Part shown: piece after piece, positions 25,622 through 51,444 of the stretch
Layout of the letters: each line of letters begins with the position of its first letter
How positions within the stretch are numbered: position 1 is the first letter of the stretch
From: Frigoribacterium sp. PhB24
Lineage (GTDB): Bacteria > Actinomycetota > Actinomycetes > Actinomycetales > Microbacteriaceae
Length of the DNA: 64,000 nt
Assembly (NCBI RefSeq): GCF_003755185.1
Contig: NZ_RKIC01000009.1
Span: 496,001 to 560,000, forward strand
Reading direction: 5' to 3'
Program-made: the position numbers and the translations under genes
Notes under the pieces: generated by a model
Database searches by the model: none
Told to the model about the DNA's origin: nothing
Seen by the model: the letters and a program-made list of their open reading frames with translations, nothing else

Positions 25622-25717
25622 GTCGGCAACTCCGGGCCGGTGCTGCGCCGCGAATGCTCGGGCGCCGGAACACGGCGCCCGCACGGATCAGCGCAGCAGG
25701 AGGCAGGAGTTGCCGAC
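25622..25717 (+). repeat. Dispersed inverted-repeat element, copy A
   Basis: About 96 bp with arms GTCGGCAACTCC (25622-25633) and GGAGTTGCCGAC (25706-25717) and a non-conserved GC-rich centre. It lies between the monooxygenase promoter and the end of the small hypothetical gene. It shares arms and orientation with copies B, C and D. Confidence 0.8.
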
Positions 25718-42726: not shown

Positions 42727-43395
42727 TCACCGCGCCACCTCGGCGGCGACCTGCTCGAGGGCCTGCACGAAGGCCTCGGGGGCCTGGGCTCCCGAGATGC
42801 CGTACTTGCCGTCGAGGACGAAGAAGGGGACGCCGGTGATGCCGAACGCCTGCGCCTGGGCCTGGTCGGCGCGCACGTCGTCGAGGTGACGCCCCGTTTC
42901 GAGGGCCGCGCGCGCCTCCTTCTCGTCGAGACCGACCTCACCGGCCAGCACGACGAGGTCGTCGACGCGGCCCACGTGGCGACCCTCCTCGAAGTACGCG
43001 TGGAGGAGTCGTTCTTTCATCTCGACCTGACGGCCGTTCGCCTTGGCGAAGTGCAGCAGCTCGTGCGCCTTGACGGTGTTCGTGTGCTGGAGACGGTCGA
43101 AGTCGTAGGCGAGACCGACCTCGGCCGCGATCCCCGCGACGGTGCCGAGCATCCCTCGGACCTGGTCGGCGGGCATTCCTTTGTGCTTCGAGAGGAAGTC
43201 GACCTCGTCGCCCTCGAAGTCGACCGGGGTGTCGGGCGACAGCTCGAACGAGTGGTACTCGACCTCGACGGGGCCGCCGAAGCGTCGCACGGCCTCCTCG
43301 AACTTACGCTTGCCGATGAAGCACCACGGGCAGGCGATGTCGGACCAGATGTCGACCTTGACGGTCGCGGACGGGGAGGCGGAGTCTACGGTCAC
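42727..43395 (-). CDS. DsbA-family oxidoreductase, FrnE-like
   Basis: 222-residue cytoplasmic thioredoxin-fold protein with an active-site CPWC at Cys22-Cys25 (DIACPWCFIGKRKFE), a cis-Pro loop GVPFFVLDGKYGISGAQ, and a helical insert. The absence of a signal peptide fits the FrnE/polyketide-oxidase-like subfamily rather than periplasmic DsbA. Partners unknown. The GTG start overlaps the stop of the nuclease-like gene (GTGA). Confidence 0.88.
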   Translation of the reverse strand: MTVDSASPSATVKVDIWSDIACPWCFIGKRKFEEAVRRFGGPVEVEYHSFELSPDTPVDFEGDEVDFLSKHKGMPADQVRGMLGTVAGIAAEVGLAYDFDRLQHTNTVKAHELLHFAKANGRQVEMKERLLHAYFEEGRHVGRVDDLVVLAGEVGLDEKEARAALETGRHLDDVRADQAQAQAFGITGVPFFVLDGKYGISGAQAPEAFVQALEQVAAEVAR

Positions 43396-44420
43396 GGCAC
43401 TCCCAACGTGCGCCCGACCACCGTCATTCCCCGTGCCTCGCCCGCATCGCTCACCCGCGTCCCCCGTGTCGGCAACTCCTGCCCCGTGCGGCGCCCGGGG
43501 ACGGCGAGCCGCCACGTCCGACGACCCCGCGGCCCGAGCACGCGCGGCAGGCAGGAGTTGCCGACACGTGACGCCGGTCTCGGTCCGCCCGCCGTGGTGA
43601 CGAGGGCCTCGACGGCAGCCGAGGTACGGGCCCACAGGTCACGGACCATGATGGTGCCCGCCCGGAACGGAACATGTCCGACGAGGGCGATGTCGGCGTC
43701 CTTGAGACGATCCTGGTCGAACCGGTTCTCGTGGTGCGCACGACCGTCGGTCTCGAGGCCCACGACCCCGTCGACGAGCATGTCCAGGATCTTGCCCGTG
43801 TCACCGACCGGGACCTGCCGCACGACGTGGTGCCCGGCGCGTCGCAGACGCGTTCCGGCCGCCGACTCGAGGATGCTCTCGGCTCCCCCGTCGCTCCAGG
43901 CCACCAGTCCCGCGGCGTCGGCACGCTTCCGTGCGAGGACCTCGGCGGCGTCCGAGTCGTCGGTCACGATGCCGGCGGCGCGGGCCCAGTCGACCAGGAT
44001 GACCGCGTCCTCGAGCGACCCCGCCTCGACCACCGCCCGGGCCAGGGCGTCTCGCGGGTCCACGGACCAGGTCGTGCCTCGGCCCTCGAGCTCGACCGGG
44101 TCCCACACGACGCGGACACCCGGACGCCGCCGGAGCCGTGACGCGGTCTCGGGCACGGAGACGGTGATGGTCGGGCGCCGCCACGACCAGGCACCGAGCT
44201 GATGGAGCGCCGCTGCCCCGGTGAGTCGGCCGCCCACCGCGACGGCGACGAACCGAGGGTCGTCTCGGGGCCAGGTCGAGTACCAGCCACGGCGGGGTCG
44301 ACGCACCGTGCGGGACCTTACGGCGACGGTCAGATGGCGGTCCGACGCACCGAGCGCGACGAGGTCACGCTTGTGCAGCAGGCCGCCGGCGGCGGAGACG
44401 AGTTCGGCGATCGTGGTCAT
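43392..44420 (-). CDS. AbiEi-like antitoxin-domain plus DUF559/Vsr-like nuclease-fold protein
   Basis: 342 residues. The N-terminal region (VSAAGGLLHKRDLVALGASDRHLTVAVRSRTVRRPRRGWYST) resembles the winged-helix AbiEi antitoxin domain. The C-terminal half has the DUF559 nuclease-like pattern: [60 protein letters not shown], consistent with a PD-(D/E)XK site. Residues about 285-319 are encoded by repeat copy B (RVGNSC...GQELPTR), so the tail is repeat-derived and runs to a stop overlapping the dsbA-like start. Copy C lies 117 bp before the ATG. Function unknown; no paired toxin is visible. No strong ribosome site. Confidence 0.75.
   Translation of the reverse strand: MTTIAELVSAAGGLLHKRDLVALGASDRHLTVAVRSRTVRRPRRGWYSTWPRDDPRFVAVAVGGRLTGAAALHQLGAWSWRRPTITVSVPETASRLRRRPGVRVVWDPVELEGRGTTWSVDPRDALARAVVEAGSLEDAVILVDWARAAGIVTDDSDAAEVLARKRADAAGLVAWSDGGAESILESAAGTRLRRAGHHVVRQVPVGDTGKILDMLVDGVVGLETDGRAHHENRFDQDRLKDADIALVGHVPFRAGTIMVRDLWARTSAAVEALVTTAGGPRPASRVGNSCLPRVLGPRGRRTWRLAVPGRRTGQELPTRGTRVSDAGEARGMTVVGRTLGVP
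43465..43568 (+). repeat. Dispersed inverted-repeat element, copy B
   Basis: 104 bp with perfect 18-bp terminal arms, CGTGTCGGCAACTCCTGC and GCAGGAGTTGCCGACACG, and a GC-rich non-conserved centre. Lies inside the 3' end of the nuclease-like gene. Confidence 0.85.
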
Positions 44421-44536
44421 GCCCCACAGCGTGCCGAGCGACGCCGACGAGAACGGGGCACCACCGCGCCACTGGGGATGACCCGGCCGCGCGAGAGCCT
44501 GGGGGCGAGCACCGACTCGCGACCCCGGCCGCCGAG

Positions 44537-44622
44537 GTCGGCAACTCCTGCATCCCGTCTGGCGACCGGACGAGACGCCGGTCGCTCGGCCTCCGCCGCT
44601 GCACGAGGCAGGAGTTGCCGAC
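44537..44622 (+). repeat. Dispersed inverted-repeat element, copy C
   Basis: 86 bp with perfect 15-bp arms GTCGGCAACTCCTGC and GCAGGAGTTGCCGAC, in the 380-bp gap 44421-44800 between the nuclease-like gene and glyS. Same orientation as A, B and D. Confidence 0.85.
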
Positions 44623-44684: not shown

Positions 44685-44757
44685 CCGGAGCGGCGCCGAC
44701 GCCGGTGCCGGAGCGGCGCCGACGCCGGTGCCGGTGCCGGAGCGGCGCCGGCGCCGG
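44685..44757 (+). repeat. GC-rich tandem repeat, 23-bp unit
   Basis: Two exact 23-bp units (44685-44707, 44708-44730), a 6-bp CCGGTG, then a third unit of 21 bp with small changes (44737-44757). Each unit starts CCGGAGCGGCGCC. It lies in the gap upstream of the nuclease-like gene, just beyond the glyS terminator; no gene is seen there. Confidence 0.8.
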
Positions 44758-51358: not shown

Positions 51359-51444
51359 GTCGACAACTCCTGCATTCTGCGCCGGCGCACACCGCCAGGC
51401 CGTGCACCCGCGCCCCCGTGCGACACCAGGCAGGAGTTGCCCGC
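51359..51444 (+). repeat. Dispersed inverted-repeat element, copy D (degenerate)
   Basis: About 86 bp with arms GTCGACAACTCCTGC and GCAGGAGTTGCCCGC, each differing at one or two positions from copies B and C. Lies between the TRIC-like gene and the leuA terminator. Confidence 0.75.

Follow-up and report, generated by a model that had tools for sequence, protein, structure and literature searches.

The window analysed here, a stretch of 64,000 nucleotides from Frigoribacterium sp. PhB24, contains a solitary nuclease gene on the minus strand (43392..44420, ATG at 44420 and stop at 43392) flanked by inverted repeats (IRs) of about 100 bp each. The upstream repeat, copy C (44537..44622), has 15-bp perfect arms 71 bp apart and is separated from the ATG by 116 bp, and the downstream repeat, copy B (43465..43568), has 19-bp perfect arms 83 bp apart start to start. 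Two dispersed copies, A (25622..25717; arms 81 bp apart, one of them with 2 mismatches) and D (51359..51444; arms with 1 and 2 mismatches), lie elsewhere in the window, the latter between the convergent TRIC-like gene and leuA; none of the four copies is assigned to a strand. An initial annotation of this DNA had described an AbiEi/DUF559-like gene between copies B and C and the occurrence of the repeat without the gene at A and D, and both the coordinates and the gene-free copies were borne out. Its placing of copies at either side of the gene holds for copy C, which lies outside the gene upstream, but copy B overlaps the 3′ end, since the frame of the gene continues through it to the stop at 43392; the shared orientation assigned to B and C has little meaning as the elements are almost symmetric. 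In this frame the arms of copy B are translated as GNSC...QELPT, and GNSG...PEFP is found at the same place in several other genera. Within the 3′ end of the gene (43465-43640) the sequence coding for the C-terminal tail falls inside the downstream element; a tail like LPRVLGPRGRRxWRL is retained also where the downstream arms are missing (L052-L056, with variants), and L112 has RRNWRL. In the interval from copy C to glyS, a tandem pair of 29-bp GC-rich repeats (44691-44748) sits beside further GC palindromes.

The exact 15-bp half-site occurs five times in the window. Allowing up to 3 mismatches gave 15 matches against 4.34 expected, a number reached in 0 of 100 shuffles, and across the whole genome there were 15 half-sites at ≤ 1 mismatch compared with 2 for a reversed control pattern. 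A search of the genome collection with the exact paired pattern returned 14 stretches, in Frigoribacterium records only; by genome it was found in 9 of 60, all Frigoribacterium (the genus accounts for 16 of the 60, the genome of the window included), with no control matches.

By profile matches and alignment, the N-terminal part of the predicted protein (about residues 1-50, minus strand) is an AbiEi-like winged helix. The C-terminal domain resembles the MTES_1575/DUF559-like (Vsr-type) PD-(D/E)XK nucleases, with a predicted nuclease core at residues 185-263 (43632..43868, minus strand) placed by a 16-member alignment and Pfam MTES_1575. E185, Q202, D213, E223 and H230 are invariant in this alignment, which includes the window protein and whose members match the Pfam AbiEi_4 profile in 15 of 16 cases (E ≤ 0.1), MTES_1575 in 13 (E ≤ 0.1) and the PADLOC AbiEi profile in all 16 (E ≤ 0.01). 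In the window protein itself the winged helix is matched by PADLOC AbiEi only (E 0.0016), and the match to the MTES_1575/DUF559 family profile, at 19.9-20.4 bits, is below the curated cut-off of 38.2. Pfam, NCBIfam and PADLOC scans gave no transposase, the recurring matches being AbiEi_4, MTES_1575, DUF559 and AbiEi. Apart from the winged helix, the structure model was of poor quality (mean pLDDT 49); on this low-confidence model the order of elements in the nuclease domain fits alpha-beta-beta-beta-alpha-beta, with acidic residues invariant in the 16-member alignment. A PDB sequence search returned five weak matches, the best being the endonuclease-like protein 3hrl (E 0.029).

One copy of the gene adjoins glyS in each of the 16 Frigoribacterium genomes searched, and no empty site was found at this locus in the 16 congeners. 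The initial annotation had proposed a mobile or excisable cassette. The data support duplication of the elements as discrete units (see below), but the cassette is unsupported because the gene occupies glyS|frnE in all 16 congeners; an excisable cassette or insertion sequence was rejected within the genus. The same annotation had considered both a fixed arrangement in relatives and a random distribution of the repeats; the arrangement is fixed within the genus, and the distribution with respect to the gene is not random. Outside the genus, 22 of 26 loci (L087-L112) have glyS, frnE or both next to the gene. Among 30 glyS loci from other genomes the gap between glyS and frnE is 48-205 bp in 8 and 639-1159 bp in 3, and in the remaining 19 no frnE was seen within the flank. 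Frigoribacterium paralogues occupy two further loci that species have in common, nnrE-like/MFS and AraC-like/glutathione peroxidase (names assigned by eye on the translations). When paralogous units are compared, their nucleotide similarity in most cases stops where the downstream element ends on its outer side, or close to that point. Hand arithmetic on ten single-contig genomes whose copy is at or beside glyS|frnE places the gene 0.42-0.49 of the genome from dnaA, near the terminus. The genus of G124 and G186 has the gene away from glyS, at 0.06 and 0.27 of the genome from dnaA. In G124 glyS directly adjoins frnE (60 bp), and the gene (C1:3332789-3333610) is about 0.25 Mb from dnaA (3086174) with repeats around it. 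A terminus-domain (matS-like) system was rejected as sole explanation, this genus having the gene elsewhere with copies nearby.

The 16 Frigoribacterium genomes contain 29 close homologues (≥ 465 bits), of which 25 were fetched (L041-L065); all 25 have the upstream IR pair, and 16 of the 25 have an 83-type downstream IR pair at the 3′ end of the gene. Five more distant Frigoribacterium paralogues (L066-L070) are without the window-type arm. Among these L069 carries another arm, GTCGACGGTTCAGG, in its upstream IR and L070 a close variant of it, forming a second group of homologues in the genus. In other genera most homologues are arranged likewise and have the related arms CGGAAATTCAGG, CGGCAATTCAGG and CGACAACTCAGG, and many distant homologues, some from other taxonomic families, have very different arms that are alike on both sides (for example L211, L214, L222, L225, L232, L234, L249, L252 and L257). 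Arms differ between protein lineages, and the upstream IR is found at about -200 to -100 relative to the gene.

Pairing was scored with a both-sides test requiring an IR in each flank, built of 10-mer arms with ≤ 1 mismatch, and an arm common to both flanks. It was passed by 65 of 104 family loci versus 3 of 98 displaced windows, a control that is partly coding DNA. With 6 same-gene repeats removed, 62 of 98 distinct loci passed and 36 failed, compared with 8 of 294 for shuffled flanks. For the distant set (L208 on) 25 of 44 distinct loci passed with their own flanks as against 85 of 1892 mismatched flank pairings, which ties the shared arm to the individual gene. Among homologues from other taxonomic families L214, L215 and L222 passed and L212, L221 and L228 failed.

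The association also extends to whole genomes. The pattern CGGMAAYTCAGG-N50-80-CCTGARTTKCCG is present in 24 of 199 family genomes, and the gene, at E ≤ 1e-40, is present in 35, which include 22 of these 24 (Fisher p = 3.5e-18). The pattern is missing from thirteen gene-bearing genomes, four of them Frigoribacterium with their own arm. Of the two pattern-bearing exceptions, one (G091) contains a weaker homologue followed downstream by an arm of the matching type. The other, G078, has six CGGAAATTCAGG-type elements over five contigs, and the sole homologue found in it (L249) has a different arm, AAAACTGAGG; since the arm of its homologue differs, the six scattered copies may be relics left after loss of a cognate gene. 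In G515, from another taxonomic family, cognate half-site pairs lie upstream, downstream and 32 kb from the gene, with a further cognate pair about 16 kb from a second homologue. The repeats are linked to the nuclease family far beyond chance. No relative was confirmed in viral contigs, where 21 pattern stretches were found, or in plasmids searched with the window protein as query, and a phage or plasmid origin was set aside.

Variation in the arm follows variation in the protein at one position of the wing. The codon of residue 44, in the wing motif RxR(x)GWY, lies at 44289..44291 (minus strand), and the residue goes with base 4 of the half-site. Both could be read in 58 of 99 distinct loci, the other 41 being unreadable; Q or N at residue 44 occurs with A at base 4 in 20 of 20, R or L with C, G or T in 36 of 36, and H with A in 2 of 2. 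By the rule as first set, in which Q/N goes with A, 56 of 58 loci obey and both H loci are discordant. A larger set of 63 loci includes same-gene repeats. On the protein tree the residue and base labels need 4 and 3 changes respectively, and in one nested lineage (L109, L243) residue and base have both changed. A mutual-information scan over all residues gave many lineage-wide ties with residue 44 outside the top rows, and the co-variation is post hoc rather than blind, as the residue was picked by eye from the scan table and then tested. The pattern fits a wing that directly reads the arm. The initial annotation had raised the possibility that the repeats are substrates of the nuclease, and family association, arm-protein matching and residue 44 co-variation agree in making them its putative sites; the repeats look like recognition sites that the nuclease would bind.

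The distance between arms is quantised. Core-to-core lengths, scanned over 40-130 bp, fall at 71, 81-83 and 92-94 in Frigoribacterium and at 71-72, 80-85, 91-94, 102-105 and 114-118 in other genera, the gaps between groups being empty in both. The best period over 191 distinct copies is 11.2 bp (Rayleigh R 0.90, versus 0.857 at 10.5), with a nominal p of 7e-68 that is too small because the copies are related by descent. In the sections of PMC1762422 drawn on here, fitted in-vivo helical repeats for lac repressor looping are 11.60 and 11.08 bp. With a period near the in-vivo helical repeat, the simplest reading of the arms is as a pair of duplex binding sites, and the whole-turn spacing suggests that both are bound on the same helical face. 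A centre motif is present, GGCGTGTC in the Frigoribacterium 82-class and CCGCG....CGGG in the 94-class of other genera. Most copies of one genome share a spacing class, as if shifting in concert (40-kb regions L149-L166); the class is 60 in G004 and G007, 70 in G003 and mostly in G002, and mostly 72 in G001 and G011.

Dispersed copies tend to lie near the gene. Of the 63 non-flanking copies listed for the nine genomes whose coordinates were usable, 41 are within 100 kb of it, including 11 of 14 in G085, 4 of 4 in G173, 6 of 7 in both G154 and G121, 7 of 12 in G203 and 2 of 2 in G186; such clustering is weak in G036 (3 of 8) and G124 (2 of 6) and absent in G117 (0 of 3). Of 188 copies in the 40-kb regions of 35 relatives only one falls inside a conserved-gene match, and it is the gene's own downstream copy; such matches span 54 % of the regions examined. 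Certain slots are shared. Copies at or near the place matching copy A are found in G013, G015, G006 and G003, and none was found there in G014, G011 and G012. Slot D, between the TRIC-like gene and leuA, holds an element in 15 of 16 Frigoribacterium genomes; in the remaining one the bases at this place are unread. The number of copies in slot D varies from 1 to 4. Beyond the genus the slot exists in 15 genomes (six genera), 10 of which have it filled, and a second slot is occupied in 9 of 17. Slot sharing across genera was reached in 0 of 2000 permutations, kinship among genomes being uncorrected. At orthologous places within Frigoribacterium the identity of arms is 0.89-0.92, a figure inflated because copies were found by their arms, compared with 0.59 for interiors and 0.56 for flanks.

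Two copies in G203, 4.8 kb apart, have interiors 91 % identical and flanks unrelated beyond about 8 bp, and close pairs with unrelated flanks are also found in G013, G015 and G074. The elements can duplicate locally as element-sized units. Pairs in G067 and G003 and one in G006 bring some flanking sequence along, duplicates that slippage or recombination would also produce. No target-site duplication was identified at the elements.

Taken together these data lead us to favour, as slightly more likely than not, a sequence-specific endonuclease-like protein with its own recognition elements, working in the manner of a REPIN-RAYT system though with an unrelated nuclease. The computational observations are association, pairing, phasing, co-variation, clustering, slot conservation and element-sized duplication; that the nuclease protein binds DNA we infer. 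Each element would consist of two inverted half-sites of ~15 bp set whole helical turns apart around a centre motif. The winged helix most likely binds both half-sites, with wing residue 44 reading base 4, so that two subunits would share a face of the DNA and turn their nuclease domains towards the centre of the element. The gene itself would be a vertically kept resident with an element 5′ to it and, in most lineages, another in its 3′ end, while a small population of non-autonomous elements would spread locally through duplication of element-sized units. By analogy with what has been proposed for RAYTs and REPINs, spread is probably begun by nicking or cutting by the protein near its site of synthesis.

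The strongest competitor, which we consider doubtful though well worth weighing, is a non-mobile array of sites. Here the protein would be an autoregulator and a local regulator or chromosome organiser, much as in ParB-parS or MatP-matS, and the IRs selected operators or anchors. Such an array would account for arms better conserved than interiors and flanks (with the inflation noted above), for intergenic slots shared across genera, for helical phasing and for an upstream element at about -200 to -100, as well as for the position of the gene near the terminus in the ten single-contig genomes; in addition, known AbiEi proteins repress their own promoters via inverted repeats, as described in the sections of PMC7319586 drawn on here. 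However it does not predict element-sized copies at new places with unrelated flanks or a copy number in slot D that varies from 1 to 4, and in G124 and G186, which belong to one genus, the gene lies away from glyS, at the distances from dnaA given above, and has copies nearby. Nor does a regulator need a nuclease domain with invariant catalytic residues, or one element in the 3′ end of its gene. That sites persist in their slots and keep their arms is as compatible with a functional array as with a mobile one. Element-sized local duplications, gene-centred clustering and variable copy number point to spread in cis, and the sharing of slots and conservation of arms to site-by-site selection; the two may act together, as for REPINs, and we therefore rank a REPIN-RAYT-like system first and the non-mobile site array second.

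Other explanations fare far worse. A remnant of a type IV toxin-antitoxin system, in which an AbiEi-type antitoxin is fused to a nuclease toxin, the upstream IR is an operator and other copies are incidental, would fit the AbiEi_4 and PADLOC AbiEi matches across the alignment, but is very unlikely. The neighbours of the gene in the window are glyS and frnE, with no AbiEii toxin gene seen beside it; AbiEi operators are described, in the excerpt drawn on here, as 23-bp repeats 3 or 13 bp apart, versus half-sites 60-92 bp apart; and the downstream element, dispersed copies and clustering are left unexplained. More improbable still are elements acting at the RNA level as terminators, mRNA-stabilising hairpins or processed RNAs. 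Copies are intergenic, and A, B and C fold far beyond shuffles (z -7.68, -7.25 and -5.26), but copy D folds weakly (z -1.74, 10 of 200 shuffles equal or better), and an RNA hairpin predicts neither a whole-turn spacing of ~11 bp nor co-variation of arm and protein. With three of four copies folding strongly and copy D weakly, an RNA-only role was rejected. That unrelated MITE-like repeats merely happen to flank the gene and are tolerated there, a possibility raised by the initial annotation and by the existence of copies away from the gene, is refuted by the 25 of 25 loci, the 62 of 98 versus 8 of 294 and the genome co-occurrence given above, and has next to no probability. Empty sites, which that annotation had looked to in relatives, are absent from the 16 congeners; in other genera glyS and frnE form a direct junction, 48-205 bp apart, in 8 of 30 loci.

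Returning to the nuclease with its own recognition elements, we put forward a broader proposal, to which we give slightly less than an even chance. The gene of the window may represent a widespread, undescribed Actinomycete class of solitary winged-helix/PD-(D/E)XK nucleases, each with cognate paired repeats on both sides and local non-autonomous copies. A short wing would set specificity and co-evolve with the repeat, and the nuclease would spread or homogenise nearby elements, a REPIN-like selfish or domesticated system of independent origin on a restriction-enzyme-like fold. In the open-access literature we found no paper on such an association of nuclease and repeats. If the proposal is true, AbiEi/DUF559-like genes now known by domain only would gain a function, and their natural protein-site pairs would allow direct tests of specificity, helical phasing and spread.

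A number of known systems share part of this arrangement. ParB-parS, MatP-matS and RTP-Ter each combine a DNA-binding protein with a few conserved sites in one chromosomal region, whereas here there is a nuclease domain and the sites duplicate, vary in number and change between lineages. MITEs and IS200/IS605 offer small non-autonomous IR elements and palindromic ends that border a nuclease gene on either side, but we found no homologous transposase and no target duplication here, and the gene is fixed within the genus. The likeness to MTES_1575/DUF559 Vsr-like nucleases consists of a weak C-terminal match and the conserved E, Q, D and E. The described MTES_1575 domain is part of a large protein that also contains HEPN, helicase and transglutaminase domains, and the sections of PMC3710099 drawn on here name no repeat association for it. 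AbiEi antitoxins (type IV toxin-antitoxin, COG5340) share the AbiEi_4-type N-terminal winged helix and upstream inverted repeats; the present gene differs in its nuclease fusion, in half-sites that are far apart and in genome-dispersed elements, and is not an AbiE system because there is no toxin partner.

The closest parallel is with REPINs and RAYTs, the best-known bacterial repeats living beside a solitary transposase. As set out in the parts of PMC3116915 drawn on here, the RAYT is a solitary gene that largely follows species relationships and sits beside its own class of repeats; the replicative unit is the REPIN, two inverted repeats and a spacer, extragenic and found in tandem clusters, with a class that differs by protein; and REPINs of SBW25 are described as randomly distributed in extragenic space. 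The nuclease gene likewise is solitary, for the most part tracks the relationships of species and lies beside its own repeats, the cognate repeat being present next to the gene, and these are extragenic inverted doublets with a variable middle and a protein-specific class, found also in tandem clusters. It differs in having a winged helix and a PD-(D/E)XK-like nuclease in place of a Y1/HUH transposase, and the lack of an HUH transposase places it outside the RAYT family. It differs also in an arm spacing quantised by helical turns, in copies that cluster near the gene in most genomes examined and in one element that lies inside the 3′ end of the gene. If an unrelated nuclease does have the same arrangement, this lifestyle arose more than once.
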